DNA from: Anaerosalibacter bizertensis
GTDB taxonomy: Bacteria; Bacillota; Clostridia; Tissierellales; Sporanaerobacteraceae
Direction of reading: 5' to 3'
DNA: 64,000 bases
Assembly: GCF_009696605.1 (NCBI RefSeq)
Contig: NZ_VULR01000001.1
Location: 62,001-126,000 of the forward strand
Shown here: positions 12,910-54,466 of the stretch, one piece after another
How the letters are laid out: each line of letters opens with the position of its first letter
Numbering within the stretch: position 1 is the first letter of the stretch
The notes under the pieces: generated by a model
Databases searched by the model: none
The model's input: only the letters and a program-made list of their open reading frames with translations
What the model was told of the DNA's origin: nothing
Made by a program: the position numbers and the translations under genes

Positions 12910-12951
12910 AATTTAATAAAATCCTTCTAACTTTTTTTATAATATCTCACA

Positions 12952-12990
12952 AAAACACTCCAAGTTTACCTTGGAGACTTGGAGTGTTTT
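12952..12990 (-). terminator. Terminator of the glycine reductase operon
   Basis: A 13-bp perfect stem (12952-12964 with 12978-12990; arm AAAACACTCCAAG) begins at the grdD stop codon. In the minus direction the second arm ends in a U-run. Confidence 0.75.
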
Positions 12991-14170
12991 AACAAATATT
13001 AGATTCATTTGAAATATAGCCTTCTTTGGCTAATATGCTTATAGCATTTTCAACTTTACCTTCATTAACCATTAAAACTGGTCCTGTGCATCCCATTCCA
13101 CTTTCTGCATATATTCCATTTTTCCAGAGAACCTTCACTGCATCTTCTAATTCCATAATATCTATACCAGAAATAGTTCCTGTTACCGTTTCCTTTTCTG
13201 GAGGAATAATTTCTTCATCAACAGTCCCTTTCTTACTATCCTTTGTTATCCCTTCAAGCATTTCTTTAAAACCTGCACTATTTACCTTTTTAAATTCTTC
13301 TTTAGCCACTTCATTTATATTTCCTTTAGATAGACTAGCACCATAACTAATAGCATTAGCTACAACTGGTACTCCTGAAGCTCTTGAAAGAATAAGTATT
13401 GTTCTTTCATAACCTTCTCCAATTCCTGGACCATATCCATAACCTAATGATTCATAGTTTCCACCTGTAGTGTAAGATGAAAACATCTTTATTAATATAT
13501 TTCCCGTTAAAGTATCTGTTATCATTACATCAGGTACTCCACTAAGTAAATCATTTCCTCTCATTACACATCCACCATCTGCTCTTAAAGATTCAGTAAA
13601 GTTGATTTTATATCCATTTTTATCAAGCTCTTTCAATGCTCTTTCCACTTGTATAGCACCATCTACATTTAATATTCCAACAGTAGGGTTATCAATACCC
13701 ATAGATTTAGCAGTAATGATTCCGTATATCCCATTCATGACCATTGCTTCTACTCTATGTGGTGAAGAAGTACCTGTAGTTGTAGCTATGAACATCTCCT
13801 TGCCTTTCCCTGGTGTTATAACTCTTCCCACAGTAGAAACTCCAATTGGAAAACTATAATGCATAGTTACAGCAGAATCTATTTCATTATTATCTAACAA
13901 TTCCTCCATTTTCTTATAACCTTCATCTTCAGTTTTCACTACTACTTGAGTCAGTGAACTATCTACTTTTGGGCCTATTAAAACAACCTCAATATTTGAA
14001 TCTCTTTCTTGAGCTATTTCCGCACCTTTAACTACATTTTCTACACCATGTTCACTTCCGAGAGTAGTTATACCTACTCTTATTTTCCTTCCAAACTGTC
14101 CTGTTTCTAAAGCATCTGCTATATCATTAAAAACTTTACCTACCATACTTTTCACATTATTATCTGTCAT
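12989..14170 (-). CDS. grdD: Glycine/sarcosine/betaine reductase component C, subunit alpha
   Basis: Together with GrdC it takes the carboxymethyl group from the Se-carboxymethyl selenoether of GrdA and releases acetyl phosphate, the energy-conserving end of glycine reduction. The 393 residues resemble PlsX/phosphate acyltransferases. The GMGCTGP motif near the C terminus places a cysteine at about residue 361, matching the catalytic Cys359 described for Eubacterium acidaminophilum GrdD. It is the last gene of the operon, 10 nt after grdC, and is followed by a terminator. Confidence 0.95.
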   Translation of the reverse strand: MTDNNVKSMVGKVFNDIADALETGQFGRKIRVGITTLGSEHGVENVVKGAEIAQERDSNIEVVLIGPKVDSSLTQVVVKTEDEGYKKMEELLDNNEIDSAVTMHYSFPIGVSTVGRVITPGKGKEMFIATTTGTSSPHRVEAMVMNGIYGIITAKSMGIDNPTVGILNVDGAIQVERALKELDKNGYKINFTESLRADGGCVMRGNDLLSGVPDVMITDTLTGNILIKMFSSYTTGGNYESLGYGYGPGIGEGYERTILILSRASGVPVVANAISYGASLSKGNINEVAKEEFKKVNSAGFKEMLEGITKDSKKGTVDEEIIPPEKETVTGTISGIDIMELEDAVKVLWKNGIYAESGMGCTGPVLMVNEGKVENAISILAKEGYISNESNIC

Positions 14171-14180
14171 TTTATCACCT

Positions 14181-15719
14181 CTACTCCTTTAGTAGATGAG
14201 AGGCAAAATCTCTCATAGCTTCTGCTACAAGGCTTCTTATTTCTTCTTCCGATACTCCTTTTTCTTCATCTACTTTTCCAGGATTCTTTTCCATAACTAT
14301 GGATACCCCATCAAATAAATTAGTCATTCTACCTAAAAATAAACTACCTTTTCCTATAATCATTGCATTTTTTATTTTGTTATTTAATATATCTTCTCTA
14401 GCAAACCCTACATAAGGTACTCCTGATGGAATATGTCCTTGAGTTGGTGCCCAACCTTCCATACCATGTGTTTCTATAAAATCATTTAACTGGGTCCTTT
14501 CCAATTCCTTTCTCATTACACCTAATGCACCAATCATTTTATAATTAGCCTTTGGTACATCCCCTGCTCCTGCAGGTTTTGTTATATCTGGATTTTGCAT
14601 TTCTACTGAGTATTTATCTATATCTGTTATTTTTAAGTCACCTTTATCAAGAGGTTCAGTTACAAGAGAACTTATAACTGCTTGAGGTGAAGAACCTGTT
14701 CCTACTGTATGTCTTCCCACTAGATCGGTTCTAAGTATTGGATTAACTCCATCATTTTCTCCTATAATAATTGCAAATCCTCCAACTACATCCTCTAATA
14801 CTGGTAATCCTTTTTTAACATGATCTTTACCATTCATACCTAACTTAGCTGTTGAACCACCTGCTACTACTACTACATTCTTAAATATTTTAGCGTCAAC
14901 TAATGCAGCAGCTTCTATCATGGCATGTGTAGGAGCGGCACAGAATCCTCTTGTATCTGAACCTGTAGCATTTGTAAAACCTGCCATTTCGCCAACTGCT
15001 TTTGCAAAATTCCCTCCACCTCTTTGATTCATATCTCCACAAGCTTCTTCTGAACATTCAATTATATATTCAACTTCCTCTGGATTAATATTATTTTTCT
15101 CTATAAGATTTAAAGCTGCTAATACTCCTGAAGCTTTTGCTACTAAATTTTCAAATAGCACATGGGCGCTAAGGTTAACATCAATGTCATGAGCTCTCTT
15201 AACGCAACCTACAAGCTCTCCATTATTATATAATCCTTCAGCACCTTGTTCTTCTACAGATTTTTTTATGCTTTCTATTTCTTCTCCTTCTTTAAGTCTT
15301 AATATTAAATCTTCTTTCATAAAATGGTGTGTTCCCAGTTTTTGTTTAACATCTTCTGTAAATTTTTTTTCTAACTTAACTAAATCAAAAGTATCTACAA
15401 TTTTCATAAGACCTATAAATTCATCTTGAGGCATTATTTCCCCAAATTTGCCTACTTTATCTGCCCCTTCAACTTTCTTATCATGCCAAGGCATTTTATA
15501 TTCTTTTAATTCTTCTGGTGTTATATTCCCAATATATGTTTGATTCGGCGGATAACTAACTACTTCTTCAAAACTTCTAATATGTTCGGGCAAGTTTTTT
15601 AAATAATCTGAATTTGGATTGATTGTTTTTTCTGTAGTTTGTGTAGTTCCATTATGCAAGATCATATCTGGCGTATGTATCAAAACATATCCTGAGCCTT
15701 TAACTACAGCATGAGCCAT
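14181..15719 (-). CDS. grdC: Glycine/sarcosine/betaine reductase component C, subunit beta
   Basis: FabH/thiolase-like partner of GrdD in component C, shared by glycine, sarcosine and betaine reductases. The 512 residues are full length, and the FabH-like part includes ECSEEACGDMNQRGGGNFAK and ATGSDTRGFCAAPTHAM. It begins behind GGAGGTG with normal spacing. A 20-bp-arm inverted repeat separates it from grdB, so component C may be made at a different level from the selenoproteins upstream. Confidence 0.95.
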   Translation of the reverse strand: MAHAVVKGSGYVLIHTPDMILHNGTTQTTEKTINPNSDYLKNLPEHIRSFEEVVSYPPNQTYIGNITPEELKEYKMPWHDKKVEGADKVGKFGEIMPQDEFIGLMKIVDTFDLVKLEKKFTEDVKQKLGTHHFMKEDLILRLKEGEEIESIKKSVEEQGAEGLYNNGELVGCVKRAHDIDVNLSAHVLFENLVAKASGVLAALNLIEKNNINPEEVEYIIECSEEACGDMNQRGGGNFAKAVGEMAGFTNATGSDTRGFCAAPTHAMIEAAALVDAKIFKNVVVVAGGSTAKLGMNGKDHVKKGLPVLEDVVGGFAIIIGENDGVNPILRTDLVGRHTVGTGSSPQAVISSLVTEPLDKGDLKITDIDKYSVEMQNPDITKPAGAGDVPKANYKMIGALGVMRKELERTQLNDFIETHGMEGWAPTQGHIPSGVPYVGFAREDILNNKIKNAMIIGKGSLFLGRMTNLFDGVSIVMEKNPGKVDEEKGVSEEEIRSLVAEAMRDFASHLLKE

Positions 15720-15813: not shown

Positions 15814-17124
15814 CTACTCTTCAAATATTGTTTGCTCTTCTACTTCAGTGATTAAAGCTTTTAAAGCTCTTTCCACTAATTTTCTTCTAAGACTTTTTTC
15901 TTCTTCAAAATCTAAATTAGGGTTACCTAATGGGTGAGGAATTGCTATTGTTGGTACTATCCTATTAGCTCCTACAGTCATAGAAATAGGAGTTACAGTA
16001 CACATATGAACTACAGGAATTCCTGCCCTTTCAATTTCTTTAACCATCGTTGCTCCGCAACGTGTACAGGTACCTCAAGTGGAAGTTAAGATAACTGCAT
16101 TAACTCCATCAGATAATAGCTCTTTTGCAATTTTTTCCGCAAAAGCCTTTGCACTAGCAACAGCTGTTCCGTTTCCCACTGTTGTATAAAAGTACCTATG
16201 AAGGCTTCCTATTTTGCCTTCTTTCTCCAAATCCCTTAAAACATCTACTGGTAACACTCTATCTGGATCTTCATTTGCATATACCGGATCATATCCCCCA
16301 TGAGCTGTTTCATGAGTTTCCTTAGTTAGATTATCGATGCCTTCAATATCGTACTTTCCATATTTAGAAGCACTAGAAGATTCTATATGGTCTGGATTTC
16401 CTTTAGGAACAATTCCACCAGATGTAACCAACGCAATTTTTGCCTTTGACAAATCTTTAATAGCTGCTTCTGGCTTTACCCTGTCAAAGTCGGGCATTGG
16501 AAACTCTGTTACAAACTCTTCTCCTTTTAATTTCTTAAGGAGCATATCCACAGCTCTTTCAGAACCTCTTTTTTCTTCAAAATAATTCTTTCTTACACCT
16601 CTTGCAATATATCCCTCTTCTTCTGGAGATCCTATATCTTCTCCCTTAGCAAGTTTTAATGCTAATGGTACCATTTGCTTCACTGCACTTCTCATACCTG
16701 CTGCACTATTCTTAGTTGAAACTATATGAACACTTTTCTTAAACATATCTGCACCAGGATTTTCTACATACATACCTGTTAAAACAGGTATGCCCAATTC
16801 TTTATGAACTGCATCTGTTATAGTTCCACAAGCTACACCATATCTTCCTGCATTAAAAGCTGGACCTGCTATGAAAATATCAGGATCATATTTTTTTACC
16901 ATTTCAACTATTTCGCTTTTAGCTTCTTCAATATTTTCATTAAAATAACTGTCACCGCATATAATTGTTGCAACTATTTCAGCTTCTCCTTTAAATCCAG
17001 CATTTATAGCCATTCCCGGTCCAACAATTCCTTCTCGAACCTCTGGTTTATAATCTGCTTTTTCTTCTCCACCTATTCCTGCAAAAAACTGATTTATATA
17101 GTGAACAGCTTTGATTTTTGCCAT
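15814..17124 (-). CDS. grdB: Glycine reductase component B, selenoprotein subunit (in-frame UGA = Sec350)
   Basis: Substrate-specific selenoprotein of protein B; it binds the glycine Schiff base held by GrdE and passes the carboxymethyl group to GrdA. The frame 17124-15814 encodes 436 residues interrupted by one TGA at 16075-16077 (codon 350). It reads STUGTCTRCGATM, the UxxCxxC redox motif of the GrdB family, so the TGA is selenocysteine and not a disabling stop. Downstream sequence continues in frame with ERAGIPVVHMCTVTPI. The start ATG follows GGGGGGAG. A SECIS-like hairpin follows the UGA (see 16048-16062). Confidence 0.96.
16048..16077 (-). promoter_or_regulatory. grdB selenocysteine codon and SECIS-like hairpin
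   Basis: The UGA at 16075-16077 is followed after 12 nt by a perfect 6-bp stem CGTTGC/GCAACG with loop GGA (16048-16062). The apical loop begins 18 nt after the UGA and starts with G, which fits the general bacterial SECIS model (UGA-to-loop 16-37 nt, G in the first two loop bases). Confidence 0.8.
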
Positions 17125-17157: not shown

Positions 17158-17634
17158 TTAATCATTAAATTTACAAAACTCGTCCCTTATGCCTTTAACT
17201 TCTTCAATTATTTCATCAACATCTAAAACCATTTCCATCATACCAATTTGTTCGTCATAAACATCTGGATCTACTGCTTCTTTAAATTCTGGCTCTACAA
17301 CATGATATACTCTAAGTCCTAACTGGACTCCTGCTAATGGACCTGCAAAAGTTGGGTCTCCTGCTGTTACAGTTTCAGCTGCTAAACCTGCAGCTTCCGC
17401 TTCAGCTCCACCTATTAATACGATTACATTTTCTTCACCGTATTTTTCAGCAGCTTCTTTAACCCTCTTTTGATTCTCTAAGTCCATAGCTCCTGCAGCA
17501 GTTCAGACAAAACATTCAGTTGATGAGAAAACTACTTCGCCACCAGTTGTCTTTATACACTCTTCAATAGCTGGTCCTGGTATACCATCCCTGTCACCTA
17601 TAATTATTATCTTTTTACCATCAAATAGTGACAT
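17158..17634 (-). CDS. grdA: Glycine reductase selenoprotein A (in-frame UGA = Sec44)
   Basis: Small selenoprotein carrier: its selenocysteine accepts the carboxymethyl group from protein B and delivers it to component C, and it is re-reduced by thioredoxin. The frame of 158 residues starts at the ATG at 17634 ([20 protein letters not shown]) behind AAGGATGTG and contains TGA at 17503-17505, codon 44, in the motif [16 protein letters not shown] (CxxU). Sec44 is the position known from E. acidaminophilum GrdA. A reading that starts at the ATG at 17487 would lose the active site. The hairpin downstream of this UGA is weak by eye (GCU/AGC). Confidence 0.96.
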
Positions 17635-17667: not shown

Positions 17668-18954
17668 TTAATAACCTTTAGCAGTTAATTTGTTAAAACC
17701 AAGTTCATTAGTTGCTCCAGTTATAGCTTGTAATTCTACAACTATACTACCATCTTCTTTCAAACTTCCATCAAATCCTCCTGCAATTGTATCTACATAA
17801 CTTGTATCTCCAATAATTTTATCCATTGGAGGAAGAGTTATTACTTCATTTGCATTTCCACCTGTTACTACAGCATTAGCTAGTGGATCAGCGTCTGCAA
17901 GAGATTGACTTGCTCCATCCCTTCCTGCATATTCATCTGTAATTATTACTGTTTTTATACCTTTTTGCTCTATTTTCTTGCAGTTCATAATAAGATCTGT
18001 ATCTGGATTACCAAAGCCTTCTTGAGAGATTAGCACTCCATCTAATCCTAAGAACTCAGCTAGTTTTGCTGTCCAATTTGATGATCTTTCCTTGTCTGCC
18101 AAATAAACATTTTCATTAGTGATTATTACTCCAATAAAATTCAATTCCTTACCATGTTTTGCAAACAAATCTTTGACTACCGGATTGTTTAAGTGATGAT
18201 AAGTTGTATTCTTATCACATGCTGAAACACAGTTTCCACTAACAATTGCACCATCCATTATTTCTGTTGGATAAATAATAGTTGGTAAAGACTCTTTTGC
18301 GTCTACGCCATAAACATAGGTATCATGAAGTAAACCTTGACTTTGAAGCATTTGAACATAAGCTACTTTTGGAAGTTCTGGATACTTATTGATACTTTCA
18401 AGCATAGGCTCTGTTTCAAAAATTTCTACTTCATCAGGAGTCAAATCTTTTGCTACTTCTCCTAAATAAGTAGCAGCCTTAAATCCAGCCATTCTTAATG
18501 CTCTTTCATGTTCATGTTGCTTAAGTCCCTCTTTAGGTTCACAAACTAAAACTATATTGTTCAATTTAGAAAATGGAGTATAATCAGCTCCTGGACCAGT
18601 CATATCAATGATACCCTCTTGAAACCCTACTATCTTTCCTGCAGTAACTACTGCACAGCCTTTTAACACATTGGTTTTACCACTTCCAACAGTATCTACC
18701 TTGGAAATCATTCCGGGGAATATTCCTCCTGGCCCCTCTACTTTAACCCTTGGTTCAATAACGTCTTTTACAGGTGTTATTCTAATGCTTTCACCTGGCC
18801 TTGCCAATTCTAAATCTACTTTTTCAAAATGTTCATCTTCTTTAATAAGATTTACTAGCTCATTTTTGTTTACATATAATGTCTTGTTTTCTAGTTTTGT
18901 CTCTTCGGCAAATTGAACATCTTCAATAAATAAATAGCCTAATTCCAGACGCAT
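17668..18954 (-). CDS. grdE: Glycine reductase component B proprotein (pyruvoyl precursor)
   Basis: Precursor of the two non-selenium subunits of protein B. Family members are cleaved before a cysteine that becomes a pyruvoyl group, which binds the substrate amino group. The protein has 428 residues. The cleavage motif SGNCVSACDKNTTYHH puts the reactive cysteine at residue 242, the position expected for GrdE. Start behind AGGAGGTG. It follows trxA after a 66-nt gap with a 17-bp-arm palindrome, and precedes grdA. Confidence 0.96.
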   Translation of the reverse strand: MRLELGYLFIEDVQFAEETKLENKTLYVNKNELVNLIKEDEHFEKVDLELARPGESIRITPVKDVIEPRVKVEGPGGIFPGMISKVDTVGSGKTNVLKGCAVVTAGKIVGFQEGIIDMTGPGADYTPFSKLNNIVLVCEPKEGLKQHEHERALRMAGFKAATYLGEVAKDLTPDEVEIFETEPMLESINKYPELPKVAYVQMLQSQGLLHDTYVYGVDAKESLPTIIYPTEIMDGAIVSGNCVSACDKNTTYHHLNNPVVKDLFAKHGKELNFIGVIITNENVYLADKERSSNWTAKLAEFLGLDGVLISQEGFGNPDTDLIMNCKKIEQKGIKTVIITDEYAGRDGASQSLADADPLANAVVTGGNANEVITLPPMDKIIGDTSYVDTIAGGFDGSLKEDGSIVVELQAITGATNELGFNKLTAKGY

Positions 18955-19020: not shown

Positions 19021-19338
19021 CTAAACATACTTTTTAATCATTTCTTCTACACTTTTTTCTGTTGCTTCTTCTTTAACTCTTTCATCAATTTTTTCTCCAT
19101 CTTTATATATAGCAATAACAGGTAAACCCAATACCTTTTGTGAAATAGCAAGTCTTCTTGCCTTCATTGTATCAAGTTTGCAAAATTTCATTTTATCTCC
19201 ATATTGTTTTTCTAATTCTTCAATATGTGGCATAAGTGCTTTACATGGCTCACAACCTTGACTCCAAAAGTCTACCAATACATAGCCATCAGCCTTTAAC
19301 ACTTCTTCTTCAAAAGTTTTTTTGTCAACCTCTAACAT
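19021..19338 (-). CDS. trxA: Thioredoxin with GCEPC active site
   Basis: A 105-residue thioredoxin fold that supplies electrons to reduce the oxidised GrdA selenenylsulfide after each turnover. The active site is WSQGCEPCK (cysteines 29 and 32), in place of the usual WCGPC. Related GCxPC sites are known for thioredoxins of glycine-reducing clostridia. It lies between trxB and grdE in the operon. Start behind AGGAGGG. Confidence 0.93.
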   Translation of the reverse strand: MLEVDKKTFEEEVLKADGYVLVDFWSQGCEPCKALMPHIEELEKQYGDKMKFCKLDTMKARRLAISQKVLGLPVIAIYKDGEKIDERVKEEATEKSVEEMIKKYV

Positions 19339-19361: not shown

Positions 19362-20306
19362 TTAATCATCAAAAACTTCACTAATATATTTTTCTGCTTG
19401 AATAGCAGCAATAGCCCCATCACCAGTAGCTGTAACTACCTGTCTTACCGTTTTAACTCTACAATCACCAGCAGCAAATACACCATCAACATTTGTTCTC
19501 ATCTCAGCATCAGTTGGAATATAGCCATTTTCCATATTAACCTTACCTTCAAATATTTCAGTTGCAGGTAAATATCCTATGAACACAAATATACCAAACA
19601 TGCCATCATCTTCGTCAGCTACTACTTCCGTTTGTTCCCCAGTTTTTGTGTTTTCTACTACCATAGAACTTACTAAGCCATCACCTTTTATTTCTTTAAC
19701 AACAGAATCCCACATGAAATCTATTTTTTCATTTTTGAAAGCTTTCTCTTGAATAGATTTAACTGCTCTTAGTTCATCTCTTCTATGAATTATAGTTACT
19801 TTCCTTGCAAATTTAGTTAAGAATATAGCTTCTTCTACAGCTGCATCTCCTCCACCAACTACATAAACTTCTAAATCAGTAAAGAATGCCCCATCACAAG
19901 TAGCACAATAAGAAACTCCTTTACCAGTTAATTCTTTTTCTCCTGGAATACCTATTGGTCTAGGTACTGCTCCTGTAGCTATTATAACCGCCTTTGCCTT
20001 ATATTCGTTTTTTTCACCTTTTATTGTTTTAATCTTATCGTCTAAATTAACTTCAAGAACAGTATCAATGATTCTTTCAGCGCCAAATTCATCAGCCTGT
20101 TGAACCATTCTTGCTGTTAAAGATGGTCCACTAGAGTTCTCAATAGAACCTGGATAGTTTTCAACCTCATTTGTAGTTACTATTTGTCCTCCAGATTTTT
20201 CTTTTTCAATTATTAGAGTCTTAAGTCTTGATCTTGATGCATATAATCCTGCTGAAAGCCCTGCAGGACCTGCTCCTATTATTATAACGTCATAAATTTC
20301 TGTCAA
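19362..20306 (-). CDS. trxB: Thioredoxin reductase
   Basis: FAD- and NADPH-dependent reductase for the adjacent TrxA. It shows the N-terminal dinucleotide fold IIGAGPAGLSAGLYAS, the redox motif CATCDGAFF near residue 135, a second NADPH-binding GGGDAAVEEA, and the C-terminal FAD motif GDCRVKTVRQV. An ATG at 20312 is only 2 nt from GGAGGAG, whereas the TTG at 20306 has normal spacing, so 314 residues are proposed. Second gene of the grd operon. Confidence 0.94.
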   Translation of the reverse strand: MTEIYDVIIIGAGPAGLSAGLYASRSRLKTLIIEKEKSGGQIVTTNEVENYPGSIENSSGPSLTARMVQQADEFGAERIIDTVLEVNLDDKIKTIKGEKNEYKAKAVIIATGAVPRPIGIPGEKELTGKGVSYCATCDGAFFTDLEVYVVGGGDAAVEEAIFLTKFARKVTIIHRRDELRAVKSIQEKAFKNEKIDFMWDSVVKEIKGDGLVSSMVVENTKTGEQTEVVADEDDGMFGIFVFIGYLPATEIFEGKVNMENGYIPTDAEMRTNVDGVFAAGDCRVKTVRQVVTATGDGAIAAIQAEKYISEVFDD

Positions 20307-20384
20307 ATTCATCTCCTCCTTAATTATAGTATGGATATAATTTACTGCTCGGTATTAAACTTACCGAAAATATTTTTATTTATA

Positions 20385-20759
20385 CTACAATCTATATAAT
20401 ACCCCTTCAATCAAAGATAAATCTATTACCTGAAAATCCTCTAGTATCTCTTTATTCCAAGGAGGTGTATTATTGATATCTAACATTTTTTTTGTAGTCG
20501 CTATACTGTTTTCAATAATCATAAGGGATTCTGTATCAAGATTACTATTTTCTGATACAATAACTGTTTTATATGGGGTTTCGTTAGGCTTAACACTGCC
20601 TGATAATGGATGAGTCAATAATTTATATCCTAAGTGAACTTTATCTCTCACTATTTCTAACAATTTTAAATAGTCAACATCATAATATTCTAAGAAAACT
20701 TTTTCTTTCAATCTATTTTTAACTAAAGGATTATTTGTTACTATAATAGACTCAGTCAT
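20385..20759 (-). CDS. grdX: GrdX protein (unknown function, first gene of the glycine reductase operon)
   Basis: A 124-residue protein with no recognised catalytic motif. It resembles GrdX, a small protein found at the head of glycine reductase clusters. It begins MTESIIVTNNPLVK behind AAGGAGAG and contains HPLSGSVKPNETPY and NNTPPWNKEIL. Because it is the first gene after the tandem glycine riboswitch it must be made whenever the operon is on. No function can be read from sequence. Confidence 0.9.
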   Translation of the reverse strand: MTESIIVTNNPLVKNRLKEKVFLEYYDVDYLKLLEIVRDKVHLGYKLLTHPLSGSVKPNETPYKTVIVSENSNLDTESLMIIENSIATTKKMLDINNTPPWNKEILEDFQVIDLSLIEGVLYRL

Positions 20760-20867: not shown

Positions 20868-20907
20868 AAAAAAAGAATAGAAAAGACACATTATGCCTAT
20901 CTACTCT
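20868..20907 (-). terminator. Riboswitch-linked intrinsic terminator
   Basis: Minus-strand stem: AGAGTAG pairs with CTATTCT (20901-20907 with 20874-20880, one G-U) and inside it AGGCA pairs with TGTCT, followed by seven U (20868-20874). It lies just after the second glycine aptamer and 110 nt before grdX, the expected place for a transcriptional expression platform. Confidence 0.75.
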
Positions 20908-20910
20908 GTT

Positions 20911-21078
20911 TTATAACCTGAGAGTTTCTCCTCCTCTATACGAGGAGGATTGCTCCTTCGGTGTGCTTTCGCTTTCCAGAGAACTGTCCAAATGCGATTC
21001 TTTTGCCTGAGAGTTTCATTATAGAGTGGCAAAACCTATAACTTACTCCTTCGGCGCCAAATTTTGGTCTCTCCCGCA
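20911..21078 (-). ncRNA. Tandem glycine riboswitch (two aptamers)
   Basis: On the minus strand aptamer 1 begins GCGGGAGAG (plus 21069-21077), has GCCGAAGGAG (about 21045-21055) and the conserved AAACTCTCAGGCAAAAG (20999-21016). Aptamer 2 has GTTCTCTGGA (about 20977-20986), CACCGAAGGAGCAA (about 20948-20961) and AAACTCTCAGG (about 20918-20928). This is the classic gcvT-type tandem arrangement. With the terminator downstream it is predicted to switch grd transcription on when glycine is abundant. Confidence 0.95.
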
Positions 21079-21153
21079 TTTTTCATACAGTTGGTGAAAA
21101 GATATTATTATTATGTATGTACTAGATTATTGAATTTTATTGTTTCCACTTTT

Positions 21154-21182
21154 ATTATAATATATAATTCCATAAAATACAA
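21154..21182 (-). promoter_or_regulatory. Promoter of the glycine reductase operon
   Basis: Minus-strand TTGTAT (21177-21182), a 17-nt spacer and perfect TATAAT (21154-21159). The predicted start is about 70 nt before the first glycine aptamer. Confidence 0.7.
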
Positions 21183-54296: not shown

Positions 54297-54333
54297 AGTA
54301 TATAAATACATAAATATATACAAAAAATCAGAT

Positions 54334-54441
54334 AACCTTCTTTCATCCAGACTATACTGTCGGCTTCGGAATCTAACCGAATCAGCCTTTCGGCTCGTGG
54401 GCTATACCACCGGTAGGGAATTTCACCCTGCCCTGAAGGTT
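54334..54441 (-). ncRNA. FMN riboswitch (RFN element)
   Basis: On the minus strand P1 is AACCTTC/GAAGGTT (54435-54441 with 54334-54340). The conserved core includes CAGGGTGAAATTCCC, ACCGGTGGTATAGCCC, GAGCC and GATTCCGAAGCCGAC, and CAGTCTGGATG-like AGTATAGTCTGGATG. All typical RFN blocks are in order. With the terminator it should stop transcription of ribD-ribE-ribBA-ribH when FMN is high. Confidence 0.97.
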
Positions 54442-54466
54442 TAAATTTCATATGTAATTTTAATTT

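Follow-up and report, generated by a model that had tools for sequence, protein, structure and literature searches.

The closest described systems are the gcvT riboswitch of B. subtilis, a transcriptional ON switch (PMC5666159), and the glycine riboswitch upstream of the grd operon of C. difficile (CD2357-48), an operon that is induced by glycine (PMC11477304, PMC10880999). Expression of the C. difficile operon also rises strongly in a sigL mutant (PMC7438776), which means that further layers of control exist in that organism. In tandem switches of the ON type the first aptamer is conserved and the second is variable, according to the portion of PMC13104608 that cites Torgerson 2020. A riboswitch in front of grd genes is thus an arrangement already known from C. 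difficile, and the induction by glycine of its own reductive fermentation is on record, so the novelty that an initial annotation of the present locus had implied does not hold.

Here we describe the corresponding locus of Anaerosalibacter bizertensis, located in a stretch of 64,000 nt that was analysed as a whole and is called the window below. A tandem transcriptional ON-type glycine riboswitch very probably controls the glycine reductase operon of this organism.

Results

The gene order grdX-trxB-trxA-grdE-grdA-grdB-grdC-grdD stated in the initial annotation was recovered with NCBIfam models, with profile matches for all eight genes, and the promoter and the intrinsic terminator that it had placed before grdX were found as well (Table 1). 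The covariance check that it had proposed gave a strong result, as both aptamers exceed the RF00504 gathering score of 32.

Table 1 Features of the grd locus, in positions of the window
Feature	Position	Strand	Details
Sigma-A type promoter	21154..21182	(-)	TTGTAT (21182-21177), 17 nt, TATAAT (21159-21154); from sequence
Predicted P0/kink-turn partners joining the aptamers	20984..21090	(-)	Leader CUGUAUGA (21090-21083) and linker GGACAG (20989-20984)
Glycine aptamer 1	20985..21086	(-)	RF00504, 66.5 bits, E 1.2e-11 (cmscan, Rfam 15)
Glycine aptamer 2	20902..20983	(-)	RF00504, 40.2 bits, E 1.1e-4 (cmscan, Rfam 15)
P1 helix of aptamer 2 (P1b), antiterminator	20904..20981	(-)	CUCUG (20981-20977) with CAGAG (20908-20904)
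Intrinsic terminator	about 20868..20909	(-)	Stem -13.1 kcal/mol; U7 at 20874-20868; from folding
grdX, GrdX family protein	20385..20759	(-)	NF038093, 138.9 bits; Shine-Dalgarno AAGGAG 20773-20768
trxB, thioredoxin reductase	19362..20312	(-)	TIGR01292
trxA, clostridial thioredoxin	19021..19338	(-)	NF047697
grdE, component B subunit alpha	17668..18954	(-)	Best match NF040793, below its sarcosine-specific cut-off
grdA, selenoprotein A	17158..17634	(-)	NF040748, 283.4 bits; in-frame UGA read as Sec
grdB, selenoprotein B	15814..17124	(-)	TIGR01917, 764.1 bits; in-frame UGA read as Sec
SECIS_4	16074-16037	(-)	RF01990; 3' of grdB UGA
grdC, component C subunit beta	14181..15719	(-)	NF040746
grdD, component C subunit alpha	12989..14170	(-)	NF040747
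Operon-end terminator	12950..12985	(-)	ACACTCCAAG ... CTTGGAGTGTTTTT; 3' of grdD

The genes encode the selenoproteins GrdA and GrdB together with GrdE, GrdC and GrdD, and the B component is of the glycine type, which makes this a glycine reductase operon. When read through its UGA, GrdB passed the cut-off of the glycine reductase B model (602.2), and it scored below the cut-offs of both the sarcosine and the betaine models. The grd gene order is conserved in four relatives of the family, and no strong internal terminator whose stem is immediately followed by a U-tract was found inside the operon. Together with the terminator after grdD, this supports transcription of the genes as one operon. 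The gene of a BMP/PnrA-like ABC substrate-binding lipoprotein (PF02608; 11731-12825, minus strand) follows the grd operon, as it does in all four family relatives examined.

Two hairpins were observed within the operon. The first, a conserved hairpin of 13-15 bp, lies directly 3' of the trxA stop codon (19020-18987, minus strand) and has a U6 run a few nucleotides downstream. It is possibly a weak attenuator or a processing site inside the operon, and with its U6 it could reduce readthrough into grdE, which counts against the mechanism proposed below. The second lies at the junction of grdB and grdC (15799-15758, minus strand) and has 20 bp in the window. It was rejected as a terminator, since it has no U-tract, and as a genome repeat, since only one copy is present in the genome. 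A hairpin at this junction is conserved throughout Tissierellales (relatives L189-L218). In the family of A. bizertensis its stem is 17-20 bp long, and its sequence varies between genera while the pairing is kept. In many other families the hairpin has the form GGGTGAT-N3-8-ATCACCC. This motif was present in 23 of 60 genomes, mostly as a single copy per genome, and by coordinates it adjoins the 5' side of grdC in about 20 of the 23. A literature search on the grdB-grdC hairpin found no paper.

Upstream of grdX, an intact TATAAT promoter like that of the window was present in all 23 leaders that were checked. In a search of the whole genome with RF00504, aptamer 2 reached 50.2 bits (20989-20896); no further matches besides the pair in the grd leader were obtained, and no glycine riboswitch was found at the gcvT-gcvH genes of the same genome. 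A riboswitch of another kind, an FMN riboswitch (RF00050, 122.1 bits), is located elsewhere in the window (54331-54444, minus strand). In the minimum free energy (MFE) fold the leader CUGUAUGA pairs with the linker GGACAG, as expected of a P0 helix with a predicted kink-turn in tandem RF00504 elements, and the relatives displayed have a similar leader of the UGNNUGA type.

The initial annotation had described two complete aptamers. The tandem architecture stands, but the two aptamers are unequal, aptamer 2 being diverged in J1/2 and J3/1. Aptamer 1 of the window matches the family consensus well, with a small change in J3/1 that is seen in the genus (AAAAGAAU where AAAAGGAC is expected). In aptamer 2, J1/2 is GGAAAG against a consensus of GGAGAG, and J3/1 is UUAUAAAAC against CAAAAGGAC. 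The same holds for the grd-linked tandem leaders in general: aptamer 1 is near the consensus and aptamer 2 diverges, with GGAAAG, GAAAAG or similar as J1/2 in most of them, and none of the 40 leader units examined retains AAAAGGAC as J3/1 of aptamer 2. In two further grd leaders (L087 and L088) aptamer 2 is present only as a remnant. Judged from the sequences, this pattern appears consistent with that reported for tandem switches of the ON type. When the divergence of aptamer 2 was compared between grd and other contexts, several of the presumed non-grd tandem loci were found to head trxB, and these therefore look like grd operons themselves.

The divergence of aptamer 2 makes the occupancy of both sites unsure. 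It also gives some weight to a degenerate or variant switch whose ability to sense glycine has been lost, or to membership in the glycine-GGAnGA class (RF03166), whose tandem model matched the whole element with 92.3 bits at a lax threshold. We regard this as highly unlikely, because the score is below the gathering score of 110, as were those of all grd-linked leaders tested, which is expected of ordinary tandem switches, and because both aptamers exceed the RF00504 cut-off.

The terminator of the riboswitch was missed by a simple terminator scan because its stem is bulged, and it was recovered by folding. Its 5' arm takes in most of the CAGAG strand (20908-20904) that forms the 3' strand of P1 of aptamer 2, and since this strand is common to both helices, bound aptamer 2 and the terminator are mutually exclusive. 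The terminator is thus exclusive with the ligand-stabilised P1, as in a transcriptional ON switch. The free minimum fold, in which the terminator is formed, has an energy of -68.6 kcal/mol compared to -64.6 kcal/mol when P1b is forced. With the terminated fold about 4 kcal/mol better, termination (OFF) should be the default state of the RNA when no ligand is bound. The energy of the terminator hairpin is -13.1 kcal/mol in the window and in its closest relative, and -17.5 to -18.6 kcal/mol in the other four members of the family.

The overlap was assessed in 40 leaders of relatives and in the window, counted as 42 leader units. The hairpin sought had to take in two or more of the six P1b-strand bases, with an energy of at most -8 kcal/mol and a U-tract behind it. 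It was present in 40 of the 42 grd-linked units compared to 109 of 630 dinucleotide-shuffled controls, in which the P1b strand alone had been kept unchanged. The two failures were L087 and L088, which have a single aptamer and only a remnant of the second.

The same anatomy bears on the direction of the switch. An OFF switch like those of sodium:alanine symporter genes, with glycine promoting termination, is very improbable at this locus. Tandem glycine OFF switches do exist, as stated in the portion of PMC13104608 that cites earlier work, but here the terminator uses the P1b strand, so formation of P1b must oppose termination, and the folds showed no separate antiterminator in competition with P1b. 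Moreover, the conserved aptamer is the first and not the second, and the downstream pathway consumes glycine. We give hardly any credence to mainly translational control, in which the P1b 5' strand (UUCUCU), freed in the OFF fold, would pair with the Shine-Dalgarno region of grdX (AGGAGAGAA). This pairing is present in the MFE fold of the full leader; however, any Shine-Dalgarno sequence would show trivial complementarity of the CUCU/GGAGAG kind, the pairing elements are about 200 nt apart, and the terminator is conserved and sufficient.

An ON mechanism is favoured by the identity of the P1 3' strand with the 5' arm of the terminator. Transcription would start some 60 nt before aptamer 1. When glycine is absent, the CAGAG strand that ends aptamer 2 would pair into the terminator hairpin, and transcription would stop at about 20868. 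With glycine, the pair of aptamers would fold and P1b would hold the CAGAG strand, blocking the terminator, so that the polymerase could continue from grdX through grdD, up to the terminator 3' of grdD. The initial annotation had proposed that glycine turns transcription on by preventing terminator formation, and the conservation of the strand overlap far above that in shuffled sequences lends support to this as the probable mechanism. It is further favoured by the linkage of RF00504 to grdX and grdC in relatives, by the ON action of the B. subtilis gcvT switch (PMC5666159) and by the induction of the C. difficile grd operon with glycine (PMC11477304), which is described for the operon as a whole. 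We infer glycine as the ligand in the window organism, as well as the size of the response and the readthrough to grdD.

Among the matches listed for 249 Tissierellales genomes, RF00504 was located on the strand of grdX and no more than 900 nt upstream of it in at least 45 genomes from 14 families, and within 9 kb (3.8-5.7 kb) upstream of grdC in at least 51 of 85 copies from 15 families. These are minimum figures, because they rest on the best matches listed and because many contigs break off close to the genes. The family of A. bizertensis had the element upstream of grdX in six of six genomes. In some families, according to the count based on grdC, trxB instead of grdX follows the switch. 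Grd switches supported by cmscan were found, among others, in Thermohalobacter berrensis, Caloranaerobacter azorensis, Thermotalea metallivorans, Geosporobacter, Tepidibacter, Clostridium carboxidivorans, Hespellia stercorisuis and Sellimonas caecigallum.

Several leaders differ in their layout. In L086, two complete tandem glycine riboswitches are arranged in series before grdX (77-257 and 434-615), each with its own terminator, and a promoter-like TTGACC/TATACT lies between them. L085, too, has a second copy of the riboswitch upstream, of which the 3' part is present. In the grdX leaders L087 and L088 one aptamer is good and the second is strongly reduced (a type-1 singleton with a ghost aptamer), and the reduced aptamer seems to supply a terminator strand.

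Glycine aptamers were also observed in front of other genes. In L039 an aptamer (1501-1590) lies upstream of a gene for a DUF711 protein (PF05167), with a small putative ACT-domain ORF between them (genes at 1696-1977 and from 1990). Aptamers are likewise located upstream of DUF711-like genes in L043, L045, L048, L056, L060, L061 and L062; the assignment is from Pfam in L039 and from similar ORFs in the other seven leaders. The 3' aptamer before the DUF711 genes has an intact AAAAGGAC or AAAAGAAC. This linkage hints at a glycine-related role for DUF711.

Discussion

These findings indicate that control of the Stickland reduction of glycine by a glycine-inducible RNA switch is no speciality of C. 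difficile and is widespread in Tissierellales and other Clostridia. The element of the window offers a precise and testable strand exchange for this control. It is tempting, although we consider it rather doubtful, to propose that the glycine riboswitch of Tissierellales serves mainly glycine reduction and not cleavage, with aptamer 1 as the sensor and aptamer 2 as a structural partner and the source of the switching strand. The hairpin between grdB and grdC and the aptamers in front of the ACT-domain/DUF711 operons are less ordinary, and they may merit more attention than the riboswitch itself.

Compared to the gcvT switch of B. subtilis, the element of the window has the same two aptamers, predicted kink-turn, single terminator and probable transcriptional ON action (PMC5666159), but the B. 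subtilis switch governs oxidative glycine cleavage and not glycine reduction. The glycine-GGAnGA riboswitch (RF03166) has the same tandem architecture, although the window element is not a member, with a score below the threshold of that class. The grd operon of C. difficile resembles that of the window both in its glycine riboswitch and in having its own thioredoxin system (grdX-trxB3-trxA3 and the remaining genes), a likeness drawn from the published description of the riboswitch and operon. In C. difficile, gcv and an AGCS transporter also have glycine riboswitches, whereas in the genome of the window the grd element alone was found, and it is thus the reductive pathway, and not glycine cleavage, that bears the sole glycine switch detected.
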